NCBI RefSeq assembly: GCF_900115715.1
Contig: NZ_FOXM01000025.1
Span: 1-39,963 of the forward strand
Length of the DNA stretch: 39,963 bases
From: Geopseudomonas sagittaria
GTDB taxonomy: Bacteria > Pseudomonadota > Gammaproteobacteria > Pseudomonadales > Pseudomonadaceae
Direction of reading: 5' to 3'
Positions 2,875 to 35,649 of the stretch are shown piece after piece; within the stretch, counting starts at the first letter, position 1; each line of letters opens with the position of its first letter. The notes under the pieces were generated by a model that was not told the origin of the DNA, did not search any database, and saw only the letters and a list, made by a program, of their open reading frames with translations. A program made the translations under genes and the position numbers.

Positions 2875-2890
2875 TAGTCTCCTAAGACGA
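2875..2890 (+). promoter_or_regulatory. Regulon element 1 (TAGTCTCCTAAGACGA) with -10 AAGAAT
   Basis: This is a 16-bp imperfect inverted repeat (TAGTCT-N4-AGACGA). A -10-like AAGAAT lies at 2913-2918, exactly 22 bp downstream, which centres the element at about -42.5. It serves the SDR gene starting at 2975, with a predicted leader of about 50 nt. It is one of 11 copies in the window with the same geometry. Confidence 0.75.
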
Positions 2891-2974
2891 TGTTGCCCCT
2901 CCCGCCCGTTGCAAGAATCGGATCCAGTCGAATGCGGGCTCGATCCGCGCTGATCCAGCAACGGGAGAACAACA

Positions 2975-3733
2975 ATGAAACGAGTCGAAGGCAAGGTTTG
3001 CATCGTGACCGGCGCCGCCAGTGGCATCGGTCTGGAGGACGCGAAGCTGCTGGTCCGCGAAGGGGCCAGGGTGGTGCTCACCGACCTCAACGAGGAAGCC
3101 GGCCAGCGTGCGGCTGCCGAAATCGGCGGCGCCGCCCTGTTCGTTCGCCACGACATCGCCAGCGAAGCCGACTGGCAGCGGGTGATCGATACCACCCTGG
3201 AAACCTTTGGCCGCCTCGACGTACTGGTCAACAACGCCGGCATCCTCGCCGTCGGCACCATCGAGGACACCTCGCTGGAGCTGTTCCAGAAGGTGCAAAG
3301 CGTCAACAACGCCGGCTACTTCCTCGGCTGCAAGTACGCGGTGCTGGCGATGAAGGAAACCGGCGGCGGCTCGATCGTCAATATGTCGTCGATGGCCGCA
3401 CTGGGCGGTATGCCGGCGTTCTGCGCCTATTCGGCGTCCAAGGGCGCGGTGGCGGCGATGACCCGCTCGATTGCCATGCACTGCAAGCAGCAGGGCTACC
3501 GCATCCGCTGCAACAGCGTGCATCCGGACGGCGTCAACACGCCGATGACCAGCGCCCTGCACGGTGGTCAACCGATTGCCCAGGAGGATCTGGAAAAGGA
3601 TCCGAAGAACCGCATGTGCGCCCCGCTGGACATCGCCAACGTGGTGCTGTTCCTGGCCTCGGACGAGTCGCGCTTCATCAACGGCGCGGAGATCCGCGTC
3701 GACAATGCCCAGCTGATCGGTGGCTCCGCCTGA
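2975..3733 (+). CDS. SDR, 3-beta/17-beta-hydroxysteroid dehydrogenase-like
   Basis: This 252-aa NAD(P)-dependent short-chain dehydrogenase probably oxidises a steroid or cyclic secondary alcohol to the ketone. Visible motifs are TGAASGIG (12-19) for nucleotide binding, Asp37 at the end of beta-2 (NAD preference), NNAG (86-89) and the catalytic Ser139-Tyr152-Lys156. From memory, segments match Comamonas testosteroni 3-beta/17-beta-HSD closely (FVRHDIASEADW, KQQGYRIRCNSVHPDGVNTPM), and the catalytic numbering differs by one residue. It is monocistronic, preceded by regulon element 1 and followed by a terminator. The exact substrate is inferred; the ketosteroid isomerase at 25064 supports a steroid. 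Confidence 0.85.
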   Translation: MKRVEGKVCIVTGAASGIGLEDAKLLVREGARVVLTDLNEEAGQRAAAEIGGAALFVRHDIASEADWQRVIDTTLETFGRLDVLVNNAGILAVGTIEDTSLELFQKVQSVNNAGYFLGCKYAVLAMKETGGGSIVNMSSMAALGGMPAFCAYSASKGAVAAMTRSIAMHCKQQGYRIRCNSVHPDGVNTPMTSALHGGQPIAQEDLEKDPKNRMCAPLDIANVVLFLASDESRFINGAEIRVDNAQLIGGSA

Positions 3734-3807
3734 CTCGGTGCATCAGGCTGAAATTGCCTGAGTGAAAGTCTTCGTGTGCTGACAGGTCTTTCCCTTTGTC
3801 ACCCTTT

Positions 3808-3834
3808 CCCCTGCCTCGAGGCCGGGTTTTTTTT
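3808..3834 (+). terminator. Rho-independent terminator after the HSD-like SDR
   Basis: The interrupted stem CCC-T-GCCT/AGGC-C-GGG around a CG centre is followed by eight T residues. It lies 75 bp after the SDR stop and separates it from the convergent LuxR gene. Confidence 0.7.
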
Positions 3835-3915
3835 GCCCGCGCTGCGCCGTATCGCCAGTGAGCTACCCCACACCCTCGTCCGAGGGCGGCATGGGGCAGT
3901 TCACGCGGTTCGCTA

Positions 3916-5079
3916 TCAGGCCAGCGCGGCGACGCTGTTGAGCAGGGTCTTGACCAACTGGGCCTGGCGCGTCGCGCCGGTCTTGGCGAAGACCCCGCGC
4001 AGATGGGCGCGCACGGTATTGCGCGAGAGGCACAGGCGCCCGGCGCTCTCGTCCAGGGTCAAACCATCCATCATCAGCATGGCCACCTCGGTTTCCGTGC
4101 GGGTCAACTGGAACAGGCTGCGCAGCAGGTGCCGCGAGGCCTGCGGCGAGTCGCTCGGGTCGCGGATGAACACCGCCACGGCCGGCCGCCGGGCGTGGCC
4201 CTGGCCTTCGTAGTTGAGGGCGATGGGGCGCAGCAGCACGTTCAACGGTACTTCGCCGGTCGGACGGGACAGGGTGAGCACTTCCACCGACTCGTCGCGG
4301 CCCTGCTGGTGATGCTGGAGCACGCTCTGCACGGCCTTCTGCAGCTGGCGGTTGTCCTGCGCGGAATACGCGTGCAGCCGCTCCTGGCGACATTCCAGGC
4401 CATCGCGCGCGGCGAACAGGCGCTGGGCGGCCTGATTGCTGCGCATCACCTTGCCGGTCTCGTCGAGGATCGCCGTGCCGACCAGCAGGCGGTCGATGGT
4501 GGCGGCGTAGAGCAGGCGCTCCGAGTCCAGCTCGTCGACCGTCGAGTGCAGGTCCACCGCCTGCTGCAGGTGCGGCCGGAGCAGCTCGATCAGCGCCCGT
4601 TCCGACGCGTCGAAGTCCTCCGCCGCATGGTCACGGCAGACGAACAGGGCGCAGTGCATGCCGGCGTCGGTGCGCAGGTTGGCCACCAGCACGTAACGCA
4701 GGTCCAGCGGCTGCAGGTAGCTCCGGTAGAAGTCGTCGGCCAGCCAGTCCTCCGGGCCCAGCACCTGGTCGGCGCTGGCCACCTGGCCGGCTGGCCAGTC
4801 GAGGAAGGGGCAGATCGAATAGTAGTGCTCGCTGTAGGACGGCTCGCCCGGCAGGTGCGGTCCGTGGACCGAGGCGTTGACGATCAGGCCGGGGCGGTCG
4901 TGGGCGGGGTTGCGCAGCACCAGGGTCGCGAAGCTAGCGCGAAAGCGCAGGCGCAGCGCCTCCAGCAGGCCGGACCAGGGCGTAGGCTCCAGCGGGCCGC
5001 GGTAGGTCAGGGCGAGCAGGTCGCTCAGTTCGCGGGCGCCGAGCCCCGCCAGTTCATGAGCATGTGACGACTCGTGCAT
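3916..5079 (-). CDS. LuxR-type HTH regulator 1 (TeiR-like size)
   Basis: This 387-aa transcription factor has a C-terminal LuxR/FixJ-type helix-turn-helix (about residues 320-385: LTRTETEVAMLMMDGLTLDE, then recognition segment SRNTVRAHLRGVFAKTGATRQ). The N-terminal 300 residues look like a ligand-sensing domain with a PAS-like segment around DETGKVMRSNQAAQRLF. There is no acyl-homoserine-lactone domain and no luxI nearby. Its length and architecture fit TeiR, the LuxR-type activator of testosterone degradation in Comamonas (family knowledge, not an alignment). Its promoter carries regulon element 2, suggesting autoregulation or cross-regulation. Its recognition helix closely resembles that of regulator 3 (35862). 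Confidence 0.85.
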   Translation of the reverse strand: MHESSHAHELAGLGARELSDLLALTYRGPLEPTPWSGLLEALRLRFRASFATLVLRNPAHDRPGLIVNASVHGPHLPGEPSYSEHYYSICPFLDWPAGQVASADQVLGPEDWLADDFYRSYLQPLDLRYVLVANLRTDAGMHCALFVCRDHAAEDFDASERALIELLRPHLQQAVDLHSTVDELDSERLLYAATIDRLLVGTAILDETGKVMRSNQAAQRLFAARDGLECRQERLHAYSAQDNRQLQKAVQSVLQHHQQGRDESVEVLTLSRPTGEVPLNVLLRPIALNYEGQGHARRPAVAVFIRDPSDSPQASRHLLRSLFQLTRTETEVAMLMMDGLTLDESAGRLCLSRNTVRAHLRGVFAKTGATRQAQLVKTLLNSVAALA

Positions 5080-5148
5080 CCCGCGCCTCGCTTGTTGTGG
5101 TTGTCAGGCTGGATGGGGCCAGTATTTGCGCGCCGCAGGGCGGGCAAA

Positions 5149-5164
5149 TCGTCCGTTTGGCCTA
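5149..5164 (-). promoter_or_regulatory. Regulon element 2 (TAGGCCAAACGGACGA) with -10 AATACT
   Basis: On the minus strand this copy differs from the consensus at position 4 (GGCC for GTCY). The -10 AATACT lies at 5121-5126 with 22 bp between. The predicted leader before the LuxR 1 ATG at 5079 is about 35 nt. Confidence 0.65.
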
Positions 5165-7261: not shown

Positions 7262-9139
7262 TCACTGCGCCAGCAGGTAGTCGACGATGCGCTCGGCGGC
7301 GGCTTCCGCCGATTCGCGGCTGGTGTCGATGCGCAGGTCGGGCGCCAGCGGCGGCTCGTAGGGTGAGTCGATGCCGGTGAAGTTCTTCAGCTCGCCGCGC
7401 CGGGCCTTCTGGTACAGGCCCTTGGGATCGCGCTGCTCGGCCAGCGCCAGCGGTGTGTCGACGAAGATCTCCAGGAAGGCGTCGTCGCCGGCCAGGCTGC
7501 GCGCCAGTTCGCGCTCGGCGCGGAACGGCGAGATGAACGAGACCAGGGTGATCAGCCCGGCATCGAGCATCAGCCGGCCCACCTCGGCCACCCGGCGGAT
7601 GTTCTCCACCCGGTCGGCTTCGCTGAAGCCCAGGTCGCGGTTCAGGCCGTGGCGCACGTTGTCGCCATCGAGCAGGTAGGTGTGGCGGCCCAGAGCGTTC
7701 AGCTTGCGTTCCACCAGGTTGGCGATGGTCGACTTGCCGGCCCCCGACAGCCCGGTGAACCACAGCATGCGCGGGGTCTGGCCCTTCAGCGCGGCGCGGG
7801 CGCCGGCGTCGACGTCGATGGCCTGCCAGTGCACGTTATGCGCGCGGCGCAGGGCGAAGTGCAGCATGCCGGCGCCGACGGTCTGGTTGCTCAGCCGGTC
7901 GATGACGATGAAGCCGCCGGTGTCGCGGTTGTCCGCGTAGGAGTCGAAGGGGATCGGCTGGTCGAGGCCGAGGTTGCACACGCCGATCTCGTTGAGCTGC
8001 AGGGTCCGGGCGGCCAGCTGTTCCAGGCTGTTGACGTCGACCTTGTGCTTGAGGGTGGCGCAGCTCATGCCCAGCGTGCGGCAGCCGATCTTCATCAGGT
8101 AGGGGCGGCCGGGCAGCATGGGCTCCTCGCCCATCCATACCAGGGTGGCCTCGAACTGGTCGGCCACCGCCGCCGGCGCGTCGGCCAGGGTGATCAGATC
8201 GCCACGGCTGATGTCGATCTCGTCCTCCAGGCTCAGGGTCACCGCCTGGCCACAGAGCGCCTCCTGCTGCTCGCCGGCCATGCCGAGGATGCCGCTGACC
8301 CGGCTTTGCCTGCCCGACGGCAGGACGCGGATCGGATCGCCGACGCGAATGCCGCCGGCGGCGACGTTGCCGGCGTAGCCGCGGAAGTCGAGGTTGGGCC
8401 GGTTTACCCATTGCACCGGCAGGCGGAAGGGCGTGCGGCTGGCGCGGCCGTCGTCCAGCGGGGCGCTTTCCAGGTGCTGCAGCAGGCTGGGGCCCTGGTA
8501 CCAGGGCATGCTTTCGCTGCGCTCCAGCAGGTTGTCGCCCTTGAGCGCGGAGAGCGGGATGCACTGGATGTCGGTCAGCCCGAGCTTGGCGGCGAAGGCG
8601 CGGTACTCGGCCTCGATGGCGCGGAACACGCTTTCCGAATAGTCCATCAGGTCCATCTTGTTCACCGCCACCAGCACCTGGCGGATGCCCAGCAGGGACA
8701 CCAGGAAGCTGTGCCGGCGGGTCTGCGCCAGCAGGCCCTGGCGGGCGTCGATGAGGATCACCGCGAGGTCGGCGGTGGAGGCGCCGGTGACCATGTTGCG
8801 GGTGTACTGCTCGTGGCCGGGGGTGTCGGCGACGATGAACTTGCGCTTGTCGGTGGCGAAGAAGCGGTAGGCCACGTCGATGGTGATGCCCTGTTCGCGT
8901 TCGGCGGCCAGGCCGTCGACCAGCAGGGCGAAGTCCAGTTCGCCGCCCTGGGTGCCGAGCTTCTTCGAGTCGACTTCGAGCTGGCCGAGCTGGTCCTCGA
9001 AGAGCACCTTGGTTTCGTAGAGCAGGCGGCCGATCAGGGTGCTCTTGCCGTCGTCGACGCTGCCGCAGGTGATGAAGCGCAGCAAATCCTTGCGCTGTTG
9101 CTGCTGCAGGTACTGGTCCAGGCTGGTAATCGCGTTCAT
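7262..9139 (-). CDS. cysNC: Sulfate adenylyltransferase GTPase subunit fused to APS kinase
   Basis: This 625-aa bifunctional enzyme has an N-terminal EF-Tu-like GTPase that drives ATP sulfurylase (GSVDDGKST at 26-34, then DTPGHEQ and NKMD). The C-terminal APS kinase (P-loop GLSGAGKST near residue 463, then [10 protein letters not shown] and FISPFRAER) phosphorylates APS to PAPS. The start at 9139 gives the canonical [11 protein letters not shown] and overlaps the cysD stop (ATGA). Both halves look intact. The kinase domain matters here because the sulfotransferase encoded divergently needs PAPS. It may be a second, cluster-specific copy or the only genomic copy; that cannot be told from this window. 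Confidence 0.95.
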
Positions 9140-10035
9140 CAGAAGTACCCCTCTTGCTTCTTCTTCTCCATGGAACCAGCCGAATCGCTGTCGATCAGCC
9201 GGCCCTGGCGCTCCGAGGTGCGGCTCACCAGCATCTCCTGGATGATGGCTTCGAGGCTGTCGGCCTCGCTGTCGATGGCGCCGGTCAGCGGGTAGCAACC
9301 CAGGGTGCGGAAGCGCACCTTGCGCAGCTCGGGCGTCTCGCCCGGCAGCAGCGGCAGGCGCTGGTCGTCGACCATGATCAGCGTGCCGTCGCGGCGCACC
9401 ACCGGGCGCTCGGCGGCGAGGTACAGGGGAACGATGGGGATGCGTTCCAGGTAGATGTATTGCCAGATGTCCAGCTCGGTCCAGTTGGACAGCGGGAACA
9501 CCCGCAGGCTTTCGCCCTTGCGCTTGCGCGTGTTGTACAGGTGCCACAGCTCGGGGCGCTGCTGCTTGGGGTCCCAGCGGTGCTGCGCGGAGCGGATCGA
9601 GAACACCCGCTCCTTGGCGCGCGACTTCTCCTCGTCGCGGCGGGCGCCGCCGAACGCGGCGTCGAAGCCGTAGTGGTCCAGCGCCTGCTTGAGGCCCTGG
9701 GTCTTCCAGATGTCGGTATGCAGGGCCGAGCCGTGCTCGAAGGGGTTGATCCCGCGCTCCACGCCTTCGGGGTTGACGTGCACCAGCAGCTCCAGGCCCA
9801 GGCGCTCGGCGGTCTGGTCGCGGAAGGCGATCATCTCGCGGAACTTCCAGGTGGTGTCCACGTGGAGCAGGGGGAAGGGCGGTTTGCCCGGGGCGAAGGC
9901 CTTCATCGCCAGGTGCAGCATCACTGCGCTGTCCTTGCCGATGGAGTAGAGCATCACCGGGTTCTCACACTCGGCGACCACTTCGCGGATGATCTGGACG
10001 CTTTCCGCTTCCAGGCGTTGCAGGTGAGTCAGCAT
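9139..10035 (-). CDS. cysD: Sulfate adenylyltransferase catalytic subunit
   Basis: CysD (298 aa, normal family size) forms APS from ATP and sulfate in complex with CysN. The PP-loop motif is [14 protein letters not shown]. Other family segments are [42 protein letters not shown] and the C-terminal KKQEGYF. The ATG at 10035 gives the standard [16 protein letters not shown] start, although the frame is open antisense far beyond it. It is the first gene of the minus-strand operon and lies under regulon element 3, not under an obvious CysB-type arrangement. Its promoter region is shared with the divergent DUF1214-sulfotransferase-DHH operon. Confidence 0.95.
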
Positions 10036-10119
10036 CGCTTGTCTCCGTGGGAGGGGACCGGCGCCGCGGGCTGCGGGCCGGATTTTTTCCACGGTAGGGA
10101 AGCTGCCGCTCTGGCTTCT

Positions 10120-10135
10120 TCGTCTGACCAGACGA
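10120..10135 (-). promoter_or_regulatory. Regulon element 3 (TCGTCTGGTCAGACGA) before cysD
   Basis: This is a nearly perfect palindrome, TCGTCT-N4-AGACGA. Read towards cysD, the -10-like TACCGT lies at 10091-10096, about 23 bp away. It is the first of two elements in the cysD/DUF1214 intergenic region, so each divergent operon has its own. Confidence 0.7.
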
Positions 10136-10191
10136 ACTTTTACCGCCCTCGACGAGCAGGGTTTCCGGCCGCGCACCGGCTGCGCGCTTTT

Positions 10192-10207
10192 TAGTCCGCC
10201 CAGACGA
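10192..10207 (+). promoter_or_regulatory. Regulon element 4 (TAGTCCGCCCAGACGA) before the DUF1214 operon
   Basis: This plus-strand copy has a -10-like TAAGGT at 10231-10236 (23 bp spacing). The predicted leader to the ATG at 10279 is about 37 nt and contains AAAGGAG as ribosome-binding site. The half-sites match the consensus except for the variable middle. Confidence 0.7.
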
Positions 10208-10278
10208 AGAATCGATGTCCGTGGCCTCCCTAAGGTGACGACAGCGGCGCCCATCGCGCCGGACCAAAGGAGACCGAC

Positions 10279-11391
10279 ATGGCGACAGATGAGATCGAAC
10301 GGCAGGTGTGCAGCGGGCAGGTCTGGAGCGATTTCTGCGACCAGCTCAAGCGTTGCGGCGAGCAGATCCTGCGGGCCGAGGCGCCCAGCGACGCGCTGAA
10401 CCGCGCGGAGGGTTACCGCTACCTCACCCGCTTGCTGCGCATCGCCCTGGAAATGCACCTGGAGTTCGCCGACCCGGACTTCCCCGGCTTCTTCTCGCCG
10501 TCCCACGAGACGGCCAAGATCGGCGCCGACAACCCGGACAACCTGTACCAGTACGCCCGCCTCAACGGCGAGAACCAGTACCGCGTCAGTGGCCGGCGCG
10601 GCAGCGTGGCCTACCTCAGCTTCGGCACCCAGAAGGGCGGCTACGAGAGCGACGGCACCATGATCCAGACCGGCTTCATCGACGCCAGCCAGTTGCAGCT
10701 GGAGGCCGACGGCAGCTTCGAGCTGATCCTCAGCCAGCAGCCGCCGGCCGCCGGCAACTGGTTGCGCATCGAACCGGAGAGCAACGCACTGATCGTGCGC
10801 CAGACCTTCCTCGACCGCGCCGCCGAGCAGCCGGCCCAGTTGCGCATCGAGCGGCTGGATAGCCAGCAGCAGCCGCAGCCGCTGACTGCCGAGCGTCTGC
10901 AGCAGAGCCTGGGCCGGGTCGCCAGCTTCGTCGAAAACACCGCGCGGCTGTTCGCCGACTGGGCCGAGGGCTACCAAGCCCGGCTGAACCAGCTGCCGCC
11001 GGCCGACCAGGCGCTGTGCCAGGCGGTGGGCGGCGATCCGAACATCTTCTACTACCACGGCTACTGGAAGCTGGCGGCGGACGAGGCGCTGCTGATCGAG
11101 GTGGAGCAGGTACCCGACTGCGACTTCTGGAACCTGCAGATCGACAACTACTGGATGGAGTCGCTGGACTACCGCTACCACCGCATCTGCCTGAACAAGC
11201 GCTCGGCGCGGCTCGATGCCAACGGCGGCGTGCGTCTGGTGCTCAGCCATCGCGACCCCGGCCTGGCCAACTGGCTGGAAACCGCCGGCCATAGCAACGG
11301 CACCTACTGCCTGCGCTGGGTCGGCGCCACGCACCCGGTCCATCCCACCACCCGCGTGGTCAAGCTCGCCCACCTCGAGGAGCTGCAATGA
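10279..11391 (+). CDS. DUF1214-domain protein
   Basis: This 370-aa, apparently cytoplasmic protein has a C-terminal DUF1214 domain (about 250-365: [57 protein letters not shown]). The N-terminal half ([20 protein letters not shown], then a strand-rich region) is the usual partner region. The biochemical function of the family is unknown. From general experience these proteins often occur beside sulfotransferases and steroid or lipid catabolic genes. Its stop overlaps the sulfotransferase start (ATGA), so it is translated together with that enzyme and may handle its substrate or product. Confidence 0.8.
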
Positions 11392-13766: not shown

Positions 13767-13782
13767 TAGTCTCATCGGACGA
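13767..13782 (+). promoter_or_regulatory. Regulon element 5 (TAGTCTCATCGGACGA) with -10 TTAAAT
   Basis: The element matches the consensus fully. The -10 TTAAAT lies at 13805-13810, with 22 bp between. It drives the acyl-CoA dehydrogenase pair and probably LuxR 2. Confidence 0.75.
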
Positions 13783-15140: not shown

Positions 15141-15152
15141 GGAGCAGCGACC

Positions 15153-16284: not shown

Positions 16285-17484
16285 ATGGAGGCTGTCGCTG
16301 TCCTCAAGCGTCCGGTCGCGCCGTCACCGGCCACTGGCGCCGCTGTGCTGCCCGAACTGATCGGGCTGGCCTACGAGGGGCTGAACGAGGCCAGGCCCTG
16401 GGGCGGGCTGGCCGAACGCCTGCGGCAGGTGCTGGCGGCGATCAACGTCACGGTGACCCTGCTGCACGCCGAGGACCGGCCAACCGATATTCAGGTGATG
16501 TCGGTCGAGGAGGACGACGACACCGACTGGCTGCTGGCGGAAAGGCTCTACCGCGAGCGTTTCGCGCATATCGAGCTGGTCGATCCCAAGTCGCTGATGC
16601 CGGGCGACCTCATCGTCTTCGGCCCCGAGGATGTGGATGCCGAGTGCGCCGCGCACATGGTCTCCCTCAATCTCGCCAGCTGCCTGCGGACCTGCTTCGC
16701 CGAACCCGGCGGCATGCGTTGCTGGGTCGACGTGATCCGTGGGCGGACACTGCCTGCTCGGCCGTTCTCGGCGGCCGAGCGGGAGCTGGTTGCGGCGCTG
16801 CTGCCCCACCTGACCCGCGCCCTCGGGCTGTACGCCCGGCTCAAGCGTCAGGAGGCGGAAAAGGCGATCTATGAGGGCTGCCTGGATCATCTCTTGCTCG
16901 GCTGCCTGCTGCTCGATGGCGATGGCCGGCTGCTCTGCGCGAACCGGGCTGCCAGGGGCATTGTCGACAAGCACCGCGGCATCGAACTCAGCCACGGGCG
17001 GGTGCAGCTGCAGGACCGCGCGGCCCAGCAGGCGCTGGAGAGGGCGATAGCCCATGCCGTCGCGGCCGGCGCGCGGGAGGGCGGGCACTGCCGCGGCGAG
17101 CTGGTGCGCCTGCAGGCCCGCGATGGCGTGCTGCTGGGCATGCTGGCGACCCCGGCGCCGCTGCTCGACTACTACTACCAGGGCCGGCACGTGCCGAGCG
17201 CGATCATCTACCTCTCGGAACTGACCGAGAGCCTGGCCATGCAGCCGCTCGCCGGCGGTTCCGCGGCGGAGCCGATTGCCCAGCTGCTCGACCTGACCCG
17301 CCAGGAAGCCCGGCTGGCCGCGCTGCTGGCCGGCGGACAGACCATCAGCGAAGCCGCCGGGCAGATGGGCATCGCGGTGACCGCCGCGCGCAACTACTCG
17401 AAGAACATCTACGCCAAGCTCGGCATCAAGGGCCAGACCGACCTGGTGCGCATCCTGTTCAAGAGCTTCGCCCTGCTGCGCTGA
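16285..17484 (+). CDS. LuxR-type HTH regulator 2
   Basis: This 399-aa regulator has a C-terminal LuxR-type HTH (about 335-395: LTRQEARLAALLAGGQTISE, then IAVTAARNYSKNIYAKLGIKG). The N-terminal sensor has the same general layout as regulators 1 and 3 but is more divergent. Its recognition helix differs sharply from the SRNTxRAHLR of the other two, implying a different operator. It follows the acyl-CoA dehydrogenase pair after 64 bp that include a 7-bp hairpin (CCCTCCC/GGGAGGG, 16243-16260), so it is probably co-transcribed. Its stop lies 11 bp from the convergent MFS stop. The ATG at 16285 gives the best N-terminus; the open frame further upstream overlaps the dehydrogenase. Confidence 0.82.
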   Translation: MEAVAVLKRPVAPSPATGAAVLPELIGLAYEGLNEARPWGGLAERLRQVLAAINVTVTLLHAEDRPTDIQVMSVEEDDDTDWLLAERLYRERFAHIELVDPKSLMPGDLIVFGPEDVDAECAAHMVSLNLASCLRTCFAEPGGMRCWVDVIRGRTLPARPFSAAERELVAALLPHLTRALGLYARLKRQEAEKAIYEGCLDHLLLGCLLLDGDGRLLCANRAARGIVDKHRGIELSHGRVQLQDRAAQQALERAIAHAVAAGAREGGHCRGELVRLQARDGVLLGMLATPAPLLDYYYQGRHVPSAIIYLSELTESLAMQPLAGGSAAEPIAQLLDLTRQEARLAALLAGGQTISEAAGQMGIAVTAARNYSKNIYAKLGIKGQTDLVRILFKSFALLR

Positions 17485-23153: not shown

Positions 23154-23215
23154 GACCTGCTGCGCCCTGATCGAGCAAAAGAGGCTCCGCGCGGCAGGCA
23201 ATCAGGAGACAGAAG

Positions 23216-24939: not shown

Positions 24940-24955
24940 TCGTCCATGCGGACGA
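24940..24955 (+). promoter_or_regulatory. Regulon element 6 (TCGTCCATGCGGACGA) before the isomerase
   Basis: This is a perfect inverted repeat of the half-site TCGTCC. The -10-like CAGACT at 24978-24983 has 22 bp between. It drives the ketosteroid isomerase and NTF2-like pair, with a leader of about 75 nt. Confidence 0.7.
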
Positions 24956-25063
24956 TTCCGCGGCGTGCCCCAGTCGCCAGACTCGAGCCCACCGAACGCC
25001 CACGGCGCGCGTCCCCGCGAGCCGCGCGGGCGTGCCGGCTGAAGCGGCCCGAGGAGCGACTAC

Positions 25064-25450: not shown

Positions 25451-25908
25451 TGAACCTGGAAGCCCGCATTGCCCGCCTGGAGGCACTGGAGGCGATCCAG
25501 CGCCTCAAGCATCGCTATCTCAATGCCTGCGACCTCAAGCAGGTCGAGTCGATCCGCGATTGCTTCGCCGAGGGGGAGATCCTCATCGACTATGGCCCCA
25601 TCGGCACCTTCCGCGACCGCGACAGCTTCGTCGCGGTCTATCGGGAACTGGCCTGCCAGCCGCGGGTGATCGACCTGCACCACGGCGCCAATCCGGAGAT
25701 CTACCTGCTGGGAGAGGATGGGGACGAGGCGGTGGGGCGCTGGGCGCTGTGCTATTGCAACCTTGACGCCGAGACTGGCGCCACCCGCAAGCTGGGCGGC
25801 TTCTACCAGGACCGCTACCGGCGTGTCGACGGGCAGTGGCGCATCGTCGCAACCGCGTTCCGCGGGCACTTCGAAACCAGCGGCGCTAGCCTGCAGCACA
25901 CGCCCTGA
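25450..25908 (+). CDS. SnoaL-like/NTF2-fold protein
   Basis: This 152-aa NTF2-fold protein is co-translated with the isomerase. The N-terminal helices (ARIARLEALEAIQRLKHRYL) and the late strand FYQDRYRRVDGQWRIVATAF are typical of SnoaL-like proteins. A central DLHHGANPEIYLLGEDGDEA could carry active-site His residues. It resembles the NTF2-like protein at 5340 in layout rather than the isomerase. A hydratase/dehydratase or isomerase-like step is possible, but there is no decisive motif. It ends 25 bp before a bidirectional terminator. Confidence 0.78.
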   Translation: MNLEARIARLEALEAIQRLKHRYLNACDLKQVESIRDCFAEGEILIDYGPIGTFRDRDSFVAVYRELACQPRVIDLHHGANPEIYLLGEDGDEAVGRWALCYCNLDAETGATRKLGGFYQDRYRRVDGQWRIVATAFRGHFETSGASLQHTP

Positions 25909-26743: not shown

Positions 26744-26805
26744 GCTTCACCTCATTAACCAGTCGCTGATGCCGCCAAGGCTAACGGGGCAGGGCGACGG
26801 CGCCT

Positions 26806-26821
26806 TCGTCCGAAAGGACTC
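26806..26821 (-). promoter_or_regulatory. Regulon element 7 (GAGTCCTTTCGGACGA) before the SDR
   Basis: On the minus strand, only the first base departs from the consensus. The -10 TAGCCT lies at 26778-26783, with 22 bp between. It lies 12 bp from element 8, which faces the other way. Confidence 0.7.
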
Positions 26822-26833: not shown

Positions 26834-26849
26834 TAGTCTCCTCGGACGA
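26834..26849 (+). promoter_or_regulatory. Regulon element 8 (TAGTCTCCTCGGACGA) with -10 GATAAT
   Basis: This is the best promoter of the set: it matches the consensus fully, and GATAAT at 26872-26877 follows after 22 bp. It drives the hydrolase at 26911 with a leader of about 27 nt. Confidence 0.78.
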
Positions 26850-26910
26850 TTCCGCTGCAGAACCCCCTTCGGATAATGCCTTTTCCGACAACAAGACGGG
26901 GAGGGCCGCC

Positions 26911-28008: not shown

Positions 28009-29142
28009 TCAGCCCTGCGCCTGCTTGTTGCGGAAGTAGGGGATGACCTTCTCGCCGATGTTCTTCAGCGTCTCCAGCTGCGCCCACTGCGGCACGGTAC
28101 CCATCTGGCAGATGAACAGGATCTCGTCGGCGCCGGCGTCGATCAGGCGCTGTACGTAGCCGATGCAGTCCTCGACGGTGCCGTAGGCGTGGTTGGGGTT
28201 CATCATCGCCTGAGTCGGGTCGGAGAAGTCCACGGTCACCTCCTCGGAGGCGAAGCGCGACTTGATCACCGCCTGGCCGTTGCCGTCGACGAAGGTGTCG
28301 TCCTTCCACTTCTCCGGGTCCGGGCGCTCGCCGCCGGCGTACCAGTAGGCCAGCGACTCCATGAAGTAGCGCTGGCCGCGGATGCCGATGGCGCGCGCCT
28401 TGTCGTTGTCTTCGAGGACGATGGCCGGGCACAGCGCGGCGATGTGGCGGTTCGGACGGAAGCCGACCTGGTTCTTCTCGTTACGGTTGTCCCAGGCCTC
28501 GTGGTACACGGCCACCTTCTTGGCGATCTCGTCCGGGCCGCCGAAGCCCAGCACCAGCGCGCCCATGCCGCGGCCGCCGGCGTTCTTCAGCGATTCGGTG
28601 TTGGTGCAGGCCAGGTACATCGGCGGGTGCGGGTCCTGGTACGGCTTGGGATGGATCGGCCGCTTGGGGATCTTGATGAAGTCGCCGTGATGCTCGATCT
28701 CGTCCTGCACGAACATCTTCGGGATCAGGTACATCGCCTCGTCGATCTGCGGATGCAGGGTGGCCAGGTCGTAGCCGAAGGTGCCGGCTTCCTGCTGGGT
28801 GCCGCCCTTGCCGACGCCGAAGTGCACGCGGCCCTTGGACAGCAGGTCGAGGGTGGCGATGCGCTCGGCCACCTTGACCGGATGGTTCATTGCCGGCGGC
28901 AGGCACACCACGCCGTGGCCGATGCCGATGCGCTCGGTCTTGCCGGCGACGAAGGCCAGCATGGTTTCCGGCGCGGACATGTGCGAGTAGTTGGTCAGGG
29001 CGGTGTGCTCGACGCACCAGAAGGTGTCGAAGCCGAGCTTGTCGGCCAGTACGGCCTGCTCGACGGTCTCGTCGAACACGCGGCGGTCGCCCTCGCGGGA
29101 GGCGTCGAGCGTCTGTGCTTCGTAGATCAGGGAGAATTTCAT
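28009..29142 (-). CDS. Luciferase-like FMN-dependent monooxygenase
   Basis: This 377-aa bacterial-luciferase-family oxygenase uses reduced FMN delivered by a separate reductase. Family marks are the N-terminal strand KFSLIYEAQT, VEQAVLADKLGFDTFWCVEH, TERIGIGHGVVCLPPAMNHP, AERIATLDLLSKGRVHFGVG and the late DAGADEILFICQMG. Relatives include the Baeyer-Villiger diketocamphane monooxygenases and various hydroxylases. The flavin reductase at 29412, divergent and under the same regulon, is the natural partner. A ring ketone produced by the SDRs would be a suitable substrate, but oxygenation type is inferred. The start at 29142 has AAGGGG upstream. Confidence 0.88.
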   Translation of the reverse strand: MKFSLIYEAQTLDASREGDRRVFDETVEQAVLADKLGFDTFWCVEHTALTNYSHMSAPETMLAFVAGKTERIGIGHGVVCLPPAMNHPVKVAERIATLDLLSKGRVHFGVGKGGTQQEAGTFGYDLATLHPQIDEAMYLIPKMFVQDEIEHHGDFIKIPKRPIHPKPYQDPHPPMYLACTNTESLKNAGGRGMGALVLGFGGPDEIAKKVAVYHEAWDNRNEKNQVGFRPNRHIAALCPAIVLEDNDKARAIGIRGQRYFMESLAYWYAGGERPDPEKWKDDTFVDGNGQAVIKSRFASEEVTVDFSDPTQAMMNPNHAYGTVEDCIGYVQRLIDAGADEILFICQMGTVPQWAQLETLKNIGEKVIPYFRNKQAQG

Positions 29143-29227
29143 GCGCTACCCCTTGTTGTTATCGGGTTGGTCGGCCCGGTGATACCGGATCTCGGGCGCA
29201 TGGTCGGAAATGAAGGAAGGGGCAGAT

Positions 29228-29243
29228 ACATCCGATCAGACTA
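29228..29243 (-). promoter_or_regulatory. Regulon element 9 (TAGTCTGATCGGATGT) before the monooxygenase
   Basis: The right half is weaker (GGATGT). The -10-like GACCAT lies at 29200-29205, with 22 bp between. This is one of two oppositely oriented elements in the monooxygenase/reductase intergenic region. Confidence 0.6.
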
Positions 29244-29334: not shown

Positions 29335-29350
29335 TAGTCCCATGGGACGA
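29335..29350 (+). promoter_or_regulatory. Regulon element 10 (TAGTCCCATGGGACGA) with -10 AAGAAT
   Basis: This is a near-palindromic, full consensus match. AAGAAT lies at 29373-29378 after 22 bp. It drives the flavin reductase-SDR-SDR-SDR operon, with a leader of about 27 nt containing GAGGAGG. Confidence 0.75.
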
Positions 29351-29411
29351 TGCCGGTCGTTTGACCCAGGTCAAGAATCGGCCCGACACAACCCACGAGG
29401 AGGGCCGAGCC

Positions 29412-29924
29412 ATGAGCCAGACCGACCTGAAATCCCAGATGCTCCAGGCGATGCGTCGCCTGGCCAAGTCGGTGACCATCATCACCACCAGCAATGGCCG
29501 CGAGCGCTTCGCCATGGCCGCCACGGCGGTCGACTCGCTGTCCACCGAGCCGCCGTCGCTGCTGATCTGCGTGAACCAGAGCGCCTCGCTGCACGCTGTG
29601 CTGGATGCGGGCGCCGACTTCTGCGTGAACATCCTCGGCCACCAGCAGGAGTACCTGTCGCACCTGTGCAGCGGGCCGATCAAGGGCGAGGGGCGCTTCC
29701 AGCAGGGCCACTGGCAGACCAGCGCTGCGGGAACCCCTTACCTGGCCGACGCCCAGGCGGCGATCCTCTGCAAACAGGACGGCAAGTTCCGCTACGGCAC
29801 CCACACGGTGTTCATCGGCCGCATCGAGCAGATCCATCACCACGGCGAGATCAGCCCGCTGGTCTACGTGGACGGCACCTACACCACCACGGCGGCGACC
29901 CTGCCGCTGGCCGCGGCCAGCTGA
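29412..29924 (+). CDS. Flavin reductase of a two-component monooxygenase
   Basis: This 170-aa FMN-binding split-barrel protein is of the HpaC/HsaB flavin reductase family. It begins MLQAMRRLAKSVTIITTSNG after the first few residues, with MAATAVDSLSTEPPSLLICV as flavin-binding strand and turn, then VLDAGADFCVNILG and GTHTVFIGRIEQI. It would supply reduced flavin to the divergent luciferase-like oxygenase. The ATG at 29412 was chosen over an in-frame upstream one at 29331 because a strong GAGGAGG precedes it and the upstream codons overlap the promoter element. It heads an operon with three SDRs. Confidence 0.87.
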   Translation: MSQTDLKSQMLQAMRRLAKSVTIITTSNGRERFAMAATAVDSLSTEPPSLLICVNQSASLHAVLDAGADFCVNILGHQQEYLSHLCSGPIKGEGRFQQGHWQTSAAGTPYLADAQAAILCKQDGKFRYGTHTVFIGRIEQIHHHGEISPLVYVDGTYTTTAATLPLAAAS

Positions 29925-30005
29925 GCCGCGCCCGCCCAATCCCGGGGCGGGGCCTGCCTGCGCAGCACGCTGCGCAGGGCGTCCCGCCCGATCCGAGGAA
30001 TTCCC

Positions 30006-30833
30006 ATGAGACTTGCTGACAAGGTCGCGCTGGTCACCGGCGCCGGCTCGGGGATCGGCCGCGCCACCGCCGAGCTGTTCGCCGCCGAGGGCGCCCGCGT
30101 GGTACTGGCGGACATCGACGAGGCAGCGGCGCGCCGGGTGCTGGAGAGCCTGCCGGCCGGCAGCGACGGCTTGGCCTGGGGCTGCGACATCGCCAACGGC
30201 GCCGCCGTGGAGCGGCTGTTCGCCGCAGTCGAGCGGCGCTACGGCCGCCTCGACGTGCTGGTCAACAACGCAGGACTGGGCCAGGTGCCCGGCGACGGCT
30301 TCGAGCACTACCAGCAGCGCATGGCCCAACGCAACGCGCAGCTGGCGGTCGGGCAGACGCCCGACGTGTTCACCGACATGATCGTCGACCTGACCGACGC
30401 CGGCTGGCAGCGCCTGCTCGCCATCAACGTCGACGGCGCCTTCTACTGCAGCCGCGCGGCGGTGCGCCTGATGATCGCCAGCGGCCGAAAGGGCTCGATC
30501 GTCAACGTCGCCAGCCTGTCGGCGCTGAGCGGCGAGGGGCCGCTGGCCTACTGCACGGCCAAGGCCGCCATGCTCGGCATGACCAAGTGCCTGGCCCGCG
30601 ACCTCGGCCCGCGCGGCATCCGGGTCAACGCGGTGTGCCCGGGGCCGACCCGCACGCCGATCATGCAGTCGATCTCCGCCGAGTGGGTGCAGGCGCTGGA
30701 GCGTGCCATCCCGCTCGGGCACATGCTCGAGCCCGAGGAGATCGCCCGGACCAACCTGTTCCTGGCCAGCGACGAATCCAGCGCCTTCACCGGCCAGACC
30801 CTCGCCGCCAGTGGCGGCATGTTGATGCTTTGA
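30006..30833 (+). CDS. SDR oxidoreductase (long variant)
   Basis: This 275-aa short-chain dehydrogenase has TGAGSGIG (about 11-18), Asp at the end of beta-2 (LADID, NAD preference), NNAG and the active site [17 protein letters not shown]. Compared with classical SDRs it has about 20 extra residues after NNAG ([20 protein letters not shown]), which probably shape the substrate pocket. The Ser-Tyr distance is one residue shorter than in the other SDRs here. It follows the flavin reductase after 81 bp and precedes the next SDR by 14 bp with AAGGAG. Its substrate is unknown. Confidence 0.85.
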
Positions 30834-30847
30834 TAAGGAGAACGACC

Positions 30848-31657
30848 ATGAGTGTGAGCATGCAGGACAAGGTGGCACTGATCAGCGGTGCCGGTACCGG
30901 CATCGGCGCGGCCGCCGCGCAACTGTTCGCCGCCCAAGGGGCGAAGGTGATGGTCTGCGGGCGCCGCCAGGCCCCGCTGGAAGCCGTGGTGGAGAAGATC
31001 CGCGCGGCCGGCGGCGAGGCCGACTGGGTGCAGGCCGACGTCACCGACGAGGAAGCTATCGACCGCGCGGTGGCGCGTACCGTCGAGCGCTTCGGCCAGC
31101 TCGACGTGATGGTCAACAACGCCGTCAACTACACCTGGGGCCCGCTGGCCCAGCTCAGCACCGAGGACTGGCAGCGCAGCCTGCGCGGCAGCCTCGACGT
31201 GGCCTTCTTCGGCACCCGCGCGGCGTTCCGCGCCATGGCGGGCCGCGGCGGCTCGATCGTCAACCTCGGCTCGGTGGTCGGCCTGCTCGGCAGTCCGGGA
31301 CTGTCCGCCTACGGCGCGGCCAAGGCCGGGGTGCTCAACTTCAGCCGCGCGGCGGCCCTGGAAGGCGCGGCCGAGAACATCCGCGTCAACGTGGTGATTC
31401 CCGGCGTGGTGTGGAGCGAGGGTACCCGCGAGGCGATGCGCAGCGAGCAGATGGCCGCCGGCACCGCCCGCGCCGTACCCATGCGGCGCATCGGCGAGCC
31501 GGTCGAGGTGGCGAATGCCATCCTCTTCCTGGCCTCGGACGCTTCTTCCTATATCACCGGGCAGAGCCTGGTGGTCGACGGCGGCAAGACCTGCGAACTT
31601 AACGTCGGTGCCACCGACTACACCTCGCAGACATCCAGCGAACTCAGAGGAGAATAA
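30848..31657 (+). CDS. SDR oxidoreductase
   Basis: This 269-aa short-chain dehydrogenase has SGAGTGIG near residue 13, Arg-rich CGRRQAP at beta-2 (NADP preference) and NNAV in place of NNAG. The catalytic Ser-Tyr-Lys lies in [21 protein letters not shown]. The C-terminus carries an extra tail after VVDGGK ([20 protein letters not shown]). The ATG at 30848 follows AAGGAG, whereas the longer open frame begins inside the previous gene. It is the second of three consecutive SDRs, which implies several redox steps on alcohols or ketones of one substrate. Confidence 0.85.
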
Positions 31658-31659
31658 CA

Positions 31660-32424
31660 ATGCACAATCTGCTCAACACGCCGGCCAGCCCGGTACTGGT
31701 CACCGGCGGCGCTTCCGGTATCGGCGAAGCCTGCGCCGAGGCCCTGGCCGCGGTGGGCCGCCCGGTGATCATCTGGGATCTGCAGGAAGAGAAGGCACGC
31801 GCCGTCGCCGCGCGCCTGGCCGAGCAGTACGCGGTGGCTTGCCTCGGCATCGGCATCGACCTGTGCGACGCCGAGGCCATCGCCCCGGCGCTGGCGCGCA
31901 CCCGCGCCGAGCTGGGCGCGCCGGGCGGCCTGGTGCACGCCGCCGGGGTGGTCGACCAGAGCGGCCTGGAGGGGCTCACTGCGGCGCGCTGGGACGCGGT
32001 GCTGAACGTCAACCTGCGCGCCATGGCCCTGCTGGTGCAGGCCATGCTGCCGGACCTGCGCGCCAATCCCGGCTCCTCCGTGGTCGGCATCGCCTCGATC
32101 AACGCCACCCTGGGCAACGGCCTGATTCCGTCCTACAGCGCCTCCAAGGGCGGCATGCTGTCGATGGTGCGCTCGATGGCCGACGCCCTCGGCGCCGACG
32201 GCATCCGCGTCAACTCGGTGTCGCCGGGGCAGATCCTTACGCCGATGGTCGCGCCTATCGCCGCGGCCCATCCGGGCATGTTCGAGCGACGCATCCTGCT
32301 CGGCCGCCTCGGCCAGCCCGAGGAGCTGGGCCGGGTAGTGCGCTTCCTGCTCTCGGACGAGGCCAGCTACATCAACGCCGCCGAGATCGTGGTGGACGGT
32401 GGCAATATCTCTTCGCAGCGCTGA
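31660..32424 (+). CDS. SDR oxidoreductase
   Basis: This 254-aa short-chain dehydrogenase has TGGASGIG near residue 16, Asp at beta-2 (IIWDLQ, NAD preference) and the variant HAAG for NNAG. The active site is SINATLGNGLIPSYSASKGG and the C-terminal EIVVDGGNISSQR is typical. It starts 2 bp after the previous stop behind AGAGGAG, so it is tightly coupled. It is the last gene of the reductase-SDR operon; I see no clear terminator after it. Confidence 0.85.
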   Translation: MHNLLNTPASPVLVTGGASGIGEACAEALAAVGRPVIIWDLQEEKARAVAARLAEQYAVACLGIGIDLCDAEAIAPALARTRAELGAPGGLVHAAGVVDQSGLEGLTAARWDAVLNVNLRAMALLVQAMLPDLRANPGSSVVGIASINATLGNGLIPSYSASKGGMLSMVRSMADALGADGIRVNSVSPGQILTPMVAPIAAAHPGMFERRILLGRLGQPEELGRVVRFLLSDEASYINAAEIVVDGGNISSQR

Positions 32425-33771: not shown

Positions 33772-33780
33772 CCCTGAGCT

Positions 33781-33814
33781 GCGCCACGCAAGTTGTCATT
33801 GCGTGGCGCGTTTT
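33781..33814. terminator. Rho-independent terminator after DoxX
   Basis: GCGCCACGCAA and TTGCGTGGCGC form a perfect 11-bp stem around GTTGTCA, followed by GTTTTCCCC. It also lies at the end of the convergent esterase gene. Confidence 0.85.
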
Positions 33815-33821
33815 CCCCTCT

Positions 33822-34745
33822 CTAGACCAGCGCGTTGCGCAGGTCGGCCGCGGCCAGCTCGAGTGCCGCGGCGGCGCCCTCGACCAGCGGGGCGAAGCTG
33901 ACGAAGCCGTGGATCATGCCCTTGACGCGCTGCATGCGCACCGCCACGCCGGCGGCGCGCAGGCGCTCGGCGAAGTCCTCGCCCTCGTCGCGCAGCGGGT
34001 CGAACTCGGCGCTGAGCAGGGTGGTGGGCGGCAGCTGCGCCAGGTCGGCGGCGAGCAGCGGTGAGACCAGAGGCTCCTCGGCCTGCTCGGTGCGCTCCAG
34101 GTACTGGGCGCGGAACCACTCCATCATCGCCCGAGTGAGGAAGTAGCCGTCGGCGAAGGCGGCGTAGGAGGCGCTGGCGCAGCGCAGGTCGGTGACCGGG
34201 TAGAACAGGCACTGGTAGGCGACGCGTGGGCCGCCCTGCTGCGCGGCCTGCAGGCAGGCGACGATGGCCAGGTTGCCACCGGCGCTGTCGCCGGCCACGG
34301 CCAGGCGACTGGTGTCGACCTGCAGCTCGGCACCGCGTCCGGCCAGGTCGCGCAGGGCGTGGAAGGCGTCCAGCGCCGCGGCCGGATAGCGCGCCTCGGG
34401 CGCGCGGCGGTACGCCACCGACACCACCGCCGCGCCGCTCAGCAGGGCCAGGCGGCGGCACAGTTCGTCGTGGCTGTCGAGGTCGCCGATCACGAAGCCA
34501 CCGCCGTGGTAGAACACCAGCAGCGGCAGTCCGGCCTGCGCCTGCGGCCGGTACAGGCGCGCGGCCAGCGGGCCGGCGGCGCCGGCGACGCTCAGCTCGC
34601 GCACCTCGGCCAGCGGCGTCGGCGCGCACATTGGCGGCATGCTGGTGGCTTGACGCAGGGTAGCGGCATCCAGGCGGGCGTAATCGGGGGCCGGCTGGGC
34701 GGCCATCTGTTGCAGCAGGGCGGCGATCTGCGGATCAAGCGACAT
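33822..34745 (-). CDS. HSL-family alpha/beta hydrolase (esterase)
   Basis: This 307-aa carboxylesterase of the hormone-sensitive-lipase family has HGGG (80-83) for the oxyanion hole and GDSAGG (152-157) with nucleophile Ser154. The acid is probably Asp249 (SAEFDPLRDEG) and the base His279 (GMIHGF). It could open a lactone or ester made by the Baeyer-Villiger-like oxygenase, or release acyl groups from the substrate. Its start overlaps the end of the upstream SDR gene by 11 bp, so the two are translationally coupled under regulon element 11. Confidence 0.9.
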   Translation of the reverse strand: MSLDPQIAALLQQMAAQPAPDYARLDAATLRQATSMPPMCAPTPLAEVRELSVAGAAGPLAARLYRPQAQAGLPLLVFYHGGGFVIGDLDSHDELCRRLALLSGAAVVSVAYRRAPEARYPAAALDAFHALRDLAGRGAELQVDTSRLAVAGDSAGGNLAIVACLQAAQQGGPRVAYQCLFYPVTDLRCASASYAAFADGYFLTRAMMEWFRAQYLERTEQAEEPLVSPLLAADLAQLPPTTLLSAEFDPLRDEGEDFAERLRAAGVAVRMQRVKGMIHGFVSFAPLVEGAAAALELAAADLRNALV

Positions 34746-35568
34746 GGGCGTCTCCTTGCGGGTCGAAGAGGTTGAATTGCGGATTGCGCTCCTCCAGCAC
34801 CGACTCCATACGGGCGCGCAGCGCCGGCTTGAAGCCCTTGTGCGGCAGGATCCAGAAGCGTTTTTCGGCGATGGCGGCGAACACCAGCTCGGCCAGCTCG
34901 CTCGGGCTCATGCCCTGGCGGATCTGCCCGTCGAGCAGGCGGTTCAGCTCACTGCCGGCGCCCTGGCCCTGGTCGGAGGTCATGATCTCGCTGTTCACCG
35001 GCCCCGGGCACAGCACCGAGACGCCGACCTGGGTGTTCAGGGCGGCCATCTCGTAGTGCAGGCTCTCCGACAGGGCCACCACCGCCTGCTTGCTGACGTT
35101 GTAGGCGGCCATGAACGGACTGTTGAGCAGCCCGGCGAGGGAGGCGGTGTTGACCACGTGGGCCGGCCGGCCCTGGGCCAGCAGCAGTGGCATGAAGGCG
35201 CGGACGCCGTTGATCACCCCGCCCAGATTGACCGCCAGGGCGCGCTGCCACTGCGCCTCGCTGAGCTCCCAGCAGCTGCCGGTCTGCATCACCCCGGCGT
35301 TATTGAACAGCAGGTCGACCGCGCCGAAGTGCGCCACGGCGGCGTCGCGCAGGTGCTCCAGCTGCGTGGCATCGGCCACGTCGGTGACCTGCGTCAGCAC
35401 CTGCACGTCCTGCGCGCGCAGCTGCGCCGCCAGGCGCTCGAGCGCCTCGCCGTCGCGGTCGGCGAGGACCAGGTGCAGTCGCTCGGTGGGGGCCCGTTCG
35501 GCCAGGCCGCGGCCGATGCCGCTGGCCGCGCCGGTGATCACTGCGACGCGGTGCTGTTGTTCGTTCAT
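34735..35568 (-). CDS. SDR oxidoreductase
   Basis: This 277-aa short-chain dehydrogenase has TGAASGIG near residue 12, Asp at beta-2 (VLADRD), FNNAGVM and the active site SLAGLLNSPFMAAYNVSKQA. A C-terminal extension (FWILPHKGFKPALRARMESV) replaces the usual DGG ending, as in the HSD-like SDRs of classical subfamily cP2. It is the first gene of a two-gene operon with the HSL esterase and is preceded by regulon element 11. A direct substrate cannot be named. Confidence 0.85.
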   Translation of the reverse strand: MNEQQHRVAVITGAASGIGRGLAERAPTERLHLVLADRDGEALERLAAQLRAQDVQVLTQVTDVADATQLEHLRDAAVAHFGAVDLLFNNAGVMQTGSCWELSEAQWQRALAVNLGGVINGVRAFMPLLLAQGRPAHVVNTASLAGLLNSPFMAAYNVSKQAVVALSESLHYEMAALNTQVGVSVLCPGPVNSEIMTSDQGQGAGSELNRLLDGQIRQGMSPSELAELVFAAIAEKRFWILPHKGFKPALRARMESVLEERNPQFNLFDPQGDAHVA

Positions 35569-35633
35569 GGCTGTGCGCTCCTCGCTGGTCTGCCGGATGC
35601 CCGCCGTTATTTCAGGAAGGTGGCGCCTCGAAT

Positions 35634-35649
35634 ACGTCCGAGCGGACTA
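35634..35649 (-). promoter_or_regulatory. Regulon element 11 (TAGTCCGCTCGGACGT) with -10 AATAAC
   Basis: On the minus strand, the last base departs from the consensus. AATAAC lies at 35606-35611 after 22 bp. It drives the SDR-esterase operon, leader about 30 nt. The 212 bp from here to regulator 3 hold no further element. Confidence 0.7.

Follow-up and report, generated by a model that had tools for sequence, protein, structure and literature searches.

What is the function of a 16-bp inverted repeat that stands, at a near-fixed distance from a -10-like hexamer, ahead of many transcription units on a single contig of Geopseudomonas sagittaria? The window analysed here is one whole contig (NZ_FOXM01000025.1, 39,963 nucleotides, hereafter C36) of a 4.61-Mb draft genome, on which the initial annotation had noted 11 copies of the repeat and proposed a LuxR-type operator defining an undescribed regulon. 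We give a probability of about 0.87 to the reading that the repeat is the operator of TeiR/TesR-like LuxR-type factors which would switch on steroid (9,10-seco) catabolism. In Comamonas, according to passages of PMC6678751, PMC6895838 and PMC8700777, the LuxR-type TeiR/TesR is required to induce steroid genes.

The repeat has the form TMGTCY-N4-RGACKA, its left arm being mostly TAGTC and its right arm mostly GACGATG. Conservation is concentrated in T-M-G-T-C-Y of the left half and R-G-A-C-G-A of the right half, the centre being freer; the repeat is followed by W and then K. All 11 16-mers of the initial annotation were found again, each on its strand, and so was the -10-like hexamer, 22 bp past the repeat at nine sites and 23 bp past it at 10120 and 10192. 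They are given below, followed by two additional sites, with the state of each in related genomes (designated G002, G004 and so on).

2875..2890, + strand: operator TAGTCTCCTAAGACGA; -10-like AAGAAT at 2913-2918; upstream of a short-chain dehydrogenase/reductase (SDR) gene, 2975-3733; arms kept in G002, G006 and G007.
5149..5164, - strand: operator TAGGCCAAACGGACGA; -10-like AATACT at 5121-5126; upstream of a LuxR-type regulator gene, 3916-5079; kept in G006 and G007, unaligned in G002.
10120..10135, - strand: operator TCGTCTGGTCAGACGA; -10-like TACCGT at 10091-10096, spacing 23; upstream of cysD/cysNC; arms kept in G006 and G007, unaligned in G002.
10192..10207, + strand: operator TAGTCCGCCCAGACGA; -10-like TAAGGT at 10231-10236, spacing 23; upstream of DUF1214 and sulfotransferase genes; identical in G006 and G007, unaligned in G002.
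13767..13782, + strand: operator TAGTCTCATCGGACGA; -10-like TTAAAT at 13805-13810; upstream of acyl-CoA dehydrogenase genes, 13974-16220; arms kept in G006 and G007, unaligned in G002.
24940..24955, + strand: operator TCGTCCATGCGGACGA; -10-like CAGACT at 24978-24983; upstream of two SnoaL-like genes, 25064-25450 and 25450-25908; arms kept in G002, G006 and G007.
26806..26821, - strand: operator GAGTCCTTTCGGACGA; -10-like TAGCCT at 26778-26783; upstream of an SDR gene, 25970-26743.
26834..26849, + strand: operator TAGTCTCCTCGGACGA; -10-like GATAAT at 26872-26877; upstream of an alpha/beta hydrolase gene, 26911-27783.
29228..29243, - strand: operator TAGTCTGATCGGATGT; -10-like GACCAT at 29200-29205; upstream of a luciferase-like monooxygenase gene, 28009-29142; identical in G002, G006 and G007.
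29335..29350, + strand: operator TAGTCCCATGGGACGA; -10-like AAGAAT at 29373-29378; upstream of flavin reductase and SDR genes, 29412-32424; identical in G002, G006 and G007.
35634..35649, - strand: operator TAGTCCGCTCGGACGT; -10-like AATAAC at 35606-35611; upstream of an SDR gene, 34735-35568, and an esterase gene, 33822-34745; identical in G002, G006 and G007.
38169..38184, + strand: additional operator-like site TAGTCTGGATGGACGA, without a good -10 at 22-23; upstream of etfBA; similar 16-mers in five related stretches, in G004 without etf behind; unaligned by blastn.
38235..38250, + strand: additional operator TAGTTCAAGTGAACGA; -10-like TAGGCT at 38274-38279, spacing 23; upstream of etfBA; same 16-mer in G002, G005, G006 and G007, not found in G004.

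The last two sites correct the initial annotation, which had held etf to be without a copy; site 38235 is a TAGTTC/GAAC variant, present in four relatives. A further correction concerns the genes of 17496-24820 (major facilitator superfamily (MFS), DAO, saccharopine-dehydrogenase-like, DUF1329 and DUF1302), for which no own operator of at least 12 bits was found.

Could such a set arise by chance, from matching sites chosen by eye? A matrix built from 16 sites of a second contig, C30, placed all 11 window sites inside the top 13 window positions, the remaining two being 38169 and 38235. The weakest of the 11 scores 13.4 bits, a score reached by 13 positions of the real window and by a mean of 0.9 in 30 first-order Markov copies of it; such copies reach 16.6 bits, so that the weakest sites, taken alone, prove nothing. 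With our own gene caller, and depending on its start-codon choice, the centres of all 11 sites fall between genes; intergenic DNA makes up 15% of the window. When the genome was scanned with a model from the 11 window sites alone, a check proposed in the initial annotation (150 of 2302 first-look candidates scored), the best 21 matches were the 11 window sites and 10 on C30, and the first match outside these two contigs has an E-value of 0.35; among those that come next are places on C33 (E-value 0.35) and C39 (E-value 0.47). The exact sequence TAGTCYNNNNRGACGA has 13 copies genome-wide, seven on C30 and six on C36, and none on other contigs. Of the 36 distinct places of TMGTYYNNNNRRACKW, 24 are on C30 or C36, contigs that account for 9.5% of the genome's length; the place at 36190, one of these, is inside a regulator gene.

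Chance is favoured by the loose consensus, which is not enriched genome-wide: with mismatches it is rarer than the reversed pattern (72 against 262), TAGTCNNNNNNGACGA with at most one mismatch occurs 437 times against 1182 for the reversed control, and a third loose-consensus count gave 67 against 173. Because the loose motif is rarer than its reversed control, single loose matches are meaningless, and it is the scored models and location that carry weight. Held-out recovery, spacing and cross-species conservation agree with the earlier opinion that chance is unlikely, and we regard it as practically out of the question.

The spacing recurs well beyond the window. Among held-out orientations of C30 sites (n = 21), a -10 score above 4 bits is found at offset 22 in seven and at offset 23 in four, any other offset from 8 to 44 giving such a score in at most one; the best hexamer among 30 offsets is at 22-23 in 14 of the 21. 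Sites of at least 15 bits around TeiR-like genes of other genera, taken non-redundantly, behave alike: a -10 hexamer carrying A2 and T6 follows after 22 or 23 bp in 55 of 80 Pseudomonas sites (other adjacent offset pairs: median 3, maximum 8), in 15 of 20 sites of marine gammaproteobacteria and Vibrio (Endozoicomonas, Oceanospirillales, Marinobacter and a Vibrio plasmid; median 2, maximum 5) and in 20 of 28 betaproteobacterial sites (Cupriavidus, Ralstonia, Burkholderia and Neisseriaceae; median 1, maximum 2). Before removal of near-duplicates the three sets held 228, 22 and 61 sites, against 25, 5 and 1 for the reversed matrix. In the 241 non-redundant oriented sites from all sources, the -10, of the form xAxAAT, is at 22 in 89, at 23 in 36 and at 21 in 12.

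No TTGACA-like consensus was found 17 bp from the -10 in the 89 sites with spacing 22, only the ATG of the operator edge being there. A reading of the TG behind the repeat as a degenerate -35 was not favoured, since the TG adjoins the repeat at spacing 22 (58 of 89) and 23 (19 of 36) alike. With the first base of the -10 set at -12, which fixes the predicted transcription start, the operator would be centred at -42.5 (spacing 22) or -43.5 (spacing 23). A dyad centred at -42.5 suits a LuxR-type activator, and activator sites typically keep a fixed distance to the -10. The near-fixed, class II-like geometry put forward in the initial annotation is supported, with 22-23 bp to the -10. We propose that the promoter consists of the operator (mostly with TG), about 22-23 bp and a -10 xAxAAT, with no TTGACA-like hexamer at the usual distance, and that a regulator dimer beside RNA polymerase would serve as a class II activator.

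Two conserved blocks at near-fixed spacing ahead of many genes would also be expected if the whole unit were the promoter of an alternative sigma factor. However, the block further upstream has the symmetry of an inverted repeat and the other one is a normal -10. The spacing can be 22 or 23, and where divergent genes have a single copy between them (C30:145674 and 121179), a -10-like hexamer stands on either side of it; we consider a sigma factor very unlikely. The same layout bears on whether a LuxR-type operator might serve repression, or several regulators of opposite effect, as the operator extends to the place of the -35. With no conserved TTGACA-like hexamer 17 bp from the -10 the promoters look weak unaided, and their fixed spacing is, as said, that of activators. 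Passages of PMC6678751 and PMC8700777 describe, for Comamonas, a LuxR-type protein that represses a hydroxysteroid dehydrogenase gene; on balance we find a repressing or mixed role unlikely here and retain activation.

Between species, these promoters are best conserved in the operator arms and the -10. In a comparison with three relatives, 29 of 36 site-genome pairs aligned (absent were 38169 in all three and 5149, 10120, 10192 and 13767 in G002). Identity is 0.99 and 1.00 for the arms, and 0.95 both for the -10 and for the two bases past the repeat; it is 0.86 at the centre, 0.89 downstream, and 0.84 both in the spacer and upstream.

The regulon inferred in the initial annotation is supported and is not restricted to the window, many more copies of the operator being carried by C30. 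Window targets comprise genes for SDRs, the regulator P0001 (see below), cysD/cysNC, DUF1214 with sulfotransferase, acyl-CoA dehydrogenases, SnoaL-like proteins, an alpha/beta hydrolase, a luciferase-like monooxygenase, a flavin reductase with SDRs, an SDR with an esterase, and etfBA. Three of them are singled out here.

9139..10035, - strand: cysD, sulfate adenylyltransferase subunit; target of site 10120.
28009..29142, - strand: luciferase-like monooxygenase; target of site 29228.
38313..39961, + strand: etfB and etfA; targets of 38235, perhaps of 38169.

On C30, covered from 1 to 170 kb, the first genes behind sites are kstD-like, old-yellow-enzyme-like, BNR/MMPL, kshA, SDR, HsaC-like extradiol dioxygenase, thiolase-like, SDR with MFS, DUF1329, SDR with enoyl-CoA hydratase, acyl-CoA dehydrogenase and aldehyde dehydrogenase genes. 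Another site heads an HpaC/HsaB-like flavin reductase gene, then a hydratase and an aldolase, and a second KshA homologue is encoded within the gene run behind site 132550. Steroid genes among the targets are kshA, kstD-, hsaC- and tesE-like genes and a tesG-type aldolase gene; kstD, HsaC, HsaB and the hydratase score under the curated NCBIfam cut-offs, the aldolase exceeds its own and KshA_C exceeds Pfam's. Taken together, the target genes make up the 9,10-seco pathway of steroid catabolism. A site is upstream of kshA in the eight same-genus genomes examined and in the three other positive genomes among 23 family members (one weak, 11 bits). It lies about 450 bp ahead of the KshA_C domain on the same strand in six of nine betaproteobacterial genomes (G161-G166); in G167 a site near KshA has the other orientation, and in G168 and G169 there is none among the matches listed.

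The sulfation module of 7262-12587 (cysD, cysNC, DUF1214 and sulfotransferase) stands behind steroid operators at spacing 23, and in G017 the same hexamers recur 23 bp behind two sites (L149:8194 and 8924). Two strong, near-palindromic sites with a -10-like hexamer, C30:24733 and C30:152426, lack a nearby downstream gene call in one direction or both; small genes or RNAs behind them are possible.

Which proteins would bind the operator? The genome encodes 18 GerE proteins, of which a low-scoring group of five, three on C36 and two on C30, is encoded entirely inside steroid degradation gene clusters. These have a C-terminal LuxR-type (GerE) helix-turn-helix (HTH) and about 390 amino acids (aa), one with a longer possible start; the label TeiR-like is used here on the basis of length, domain and gene context.

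3916..5079, - strand: P0001, TeiR-like LuxR-type regulator, 387 aa, recognition helix RNTxRxHLRxxFxKTG; candidate operator-binding protein.
35862..37034, + strand: P0003, TeiR-like LuxR-type regulator, 390 aa, helix type as P0001; candidate operator-binding protein.
16345..17484, + strand: P0006, divergent TeiR-like regulator with a different recognition helix; use of this operator unlikely.
C30:28246-29439 and C30:124685-125848: P0004 and P0005, regulators outside the window; good operator-binding candidates.

P0001, P0004 and P0005 are only 36-39% identical to P0003, yet share a common type of recognition region, from which P0006 differs. Over 38 regulators (P0006 and the pNL2 protein excluded), mean pairwise identity is 85% in the recognition region and 48% in the sensor part. 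The initial annotation had named all three window regulators as possible binders; P0001 and P0003 remain candidates, whereas P0006, with its different recognition helix, is a poor one. Likely P0006 orthologues, judged by score, occur in six of seven same-genus relatives. Site 5149, upstream of the P0001 gene, suggests that this regulator may control its own synthesis. We rejected the window regulators as sole candidates, P0004 and P0005 fitting a genus-wide role better. G003, with 25 operator matches at E-value 1 (10 at 0.05), has two regulators only, of P0004 and P0005 types, and G022, with 12 matches at E-value 1 (six at 0.05), has one, of P0004 type, near kshA.

A Pfam scan of four of the five regulators found no autoinducer-binding domain, only GerE, a weak PAS in one and weak other HTH matches. 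An AlphaFold2 model of P0003 (35 sequences; mean pLDDT 76.5, pTM 0.57) gave, with Foldseek, phytochromes and LuxR-type receptors at query-normalised TM-scores below 0.4, a hint that P0003 may be laid out as a sensor followed by an HTH; a sequence search of the PDB returned two HTH-only matches (E-values 0.006 and 0.008). The Vibrio alfacsensis plasmid NZ_CP140104.1 (locus L159) encodes a TeiR-like regulator 57% identical to P0004; it also carries operator-like sites (16057 and 20146), numerous genes of acyl-CoA metabolism, one for a lipid-transfer protein, etf and cysDN.

The association of operator and regulator was examined, under stricter filters, in 148 genomes of the family, our own included (at most 40 operator and 13 protein candidates scored per genome). 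A TeiR-like protein (E-value 1e-60) is encoded by 38 genomes, 35 of which have five or more operators at E-value 0.05; none of the 110 others has as many. This supports the LuxR-type assignment of the initial annotation. As presence and absence vary inside genera g5, g9, g11 and g14, this co-occurrence does not reflect shared ancestry alone. Among 23 family genomes (of 36 relatives), 11 have the operator cluster, and it is these 11 that also have strong KshA and strong TeiR-like proteins. The remaining 12 include G008, with 10 weak operator matches (best E-value 0.32) and weak KshA matches, G014, also with weak KshA matches, and G016, with weak TeiR-like matches. Eighteen genomes were chosen for their TeiR-like loci: KshA is present in all, and 17 have 5-21 operator matches at E-value 0.5, Panacagrimonas being the exception.

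Linked genes are inseparable by co-occurrence, and in the 23 family genomes strong KshA co-occurs with the operator as perfectly as the regulators do. The repeat might accordingly be bound by another regulator family of the same clusters, with TeiR-like proteins merely travelling along. Among those C30 regulators that were surveyed, one is of LysR type (59401-60297) and one of AraC type (41866-42789), and passages of PMC12239570 and PMC8700777 mention TetR-like regulators beside steroid genes. Against this, the five weak-scoring GerE proteins are all on the two operator contigs, only three regulators, all LuxR-type, were recognised among the window genes scanned, and the recognition region is conserved alongside the operator across Gamma- and Betaproteobacteria. 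The centre at -42.5 again fits a LuxR-type activator. We judge binding by another family quite unlikely and keep the TeiR-like proteins as the probable binders.

Several observations weigh against that assignment. Three genomes of genus g31 have regulators and one operator match each, and nine of the 110 regulator-free family genomes hold 1-2 matches. In other families, G029, G030 and G032 have regulator and KshA with weak operator matches (best E-values 0.11, 0.45 and 0.37), G029 having one excellent site near its regulator (TAGTCTCTTCGGACGA with AAAAAT at 22 bp, in a 47% GC stretch) and G030 and G032 few operator-like sites; in G025, G033 and G035 KshA is present and neither a TeiR-like protein nor an operator match was found. 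Panacagrimonas, with regulator and KshA, gave a single weak match genome-wide (E-value 0.31), and its two loci one site against one control site, while the surroundings of the LuxR-type gene of Novosphingobium pNL2 gave none against two control sites. The betaproteobacterial genomes were sampled because they hold TeiR-like genes, and are all regulator-bearing. The 21 C30 orientations were hand-picked once the sequences were known (a single orientation for each intergenic site, except four that entered with both; for 28213 the one with the lower score; six in-gene matches omitted), and 104 of the 241 oriented sites have no -10 at 21-23, part of these being reverse orientations. From the literature, passages of PMC6678751 describe TeiR as a polar membrane kinase, which fits a simple DNA-binding activator poorly, and a report cited in a passage of PMC6895838 has tesR-like genes only in C. 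testosteroni.

The ligands of the regulators would be steroids or steroid intermediates. The paralogues, two in the window and two outside, combine a near-identical recognition helix with divergent sensor parts, so that different steroid signals most likely converge on one operator. We lean, with some reserve, towards a wider form of this proposal, in which, in a large share of the Gamma- and Betaproteobacteria, one operator-promoter design and a TeiR-like activator family would govern the aerobic breakdown of steroids. Several sensors, each with its own steroid ligand, would feed one operator, as a proteobacterial counterpart of the actinobacterial KstR regulon that here would also include sulfate activation, a sulfotransferase and an electron-transfer flavoprotein.

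Parts of this arrangement have precedents. In lux-box class II promoters (LuxR of V. fischeri), an inverted repeat is centred near -42.5, upstream of the -10, the position predicted for the present operator, and the regulator has a LuxR-type HTH; the repeat sequence differs from the present operator and, unlike in that system, the regulators that were scanned gave no match to an acyl-homoserine lactone-binding Pfam domain. The KstR/KstR2 regulons of Actinobacteria resemble the present system in having one operator type common to scattered steroid operons, whereas that operator differs in sequence and position. KstR and KstR2 are TetR-type repressors, according to a passage of PMC8399759, and not LuxR-type as here. 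The TeiR/TesR regulon of C. testosteroni resembles the system proposed here, a LuxR-type regulator being required there to induce the steroid genes of a large cluster (passages of PMC6895838, PMC6678751 and PMC13101464); these passages name no operator, and the present genome differs in having five paralogues. In the pdc cluster of Caenibius tardaugens, for progesterone breakdown, a luciferase-like monooxygenase gene also adjoins a LuxR-type regulator gene (passage of PMC12239570), but this organism is alphaproteobacterial and the related Novosphingobium pNL2 locus has no such site. For P. stutzeri Chol1, a passage of PMC8399759 mentions two TeiR-like genes and, citing unpublished data, a delay in the degradation of cholic acid when one of them was deleted.

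A 2021 review described regulation in bile-acid-degrading Proteobacteria as largely unknown (passage of PMC8399759). No operator of this kind was found in the literature searched, which did not include the original TeiR paper, and a description elsewhere is possible; the operator and regulon appear to be new, the kind of system being already known. A defined operator with near-fixed promoter geometry makes the regulatory mechanism directly testable, allows the regulon to be inferred from sequence in many species and flags candidate pathway genes, including the unexpected sulfation module. It could also be used as part of a steroid biosensor.

Two features at the borders of the system are worth recording. 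Between the P0003 gene and etfB, 1.3 kb (37034-38313) hold no gene by our own caller; two open reading frames there have no Pfam match, and part of the stretch carries a called gene, on differing strands, in G002, G004, G006 and G007. Finally, the ends of both contigs (window 1-2314 and C30:1-4202) fall inside a cusB-like gene, to which the window adds an outer-membrane efflux gene and C30 a CusF domain and a resistance-nodulation-division (RND) pump; the two contigs may be neighbours, or the assembly may have broken at a repeat.

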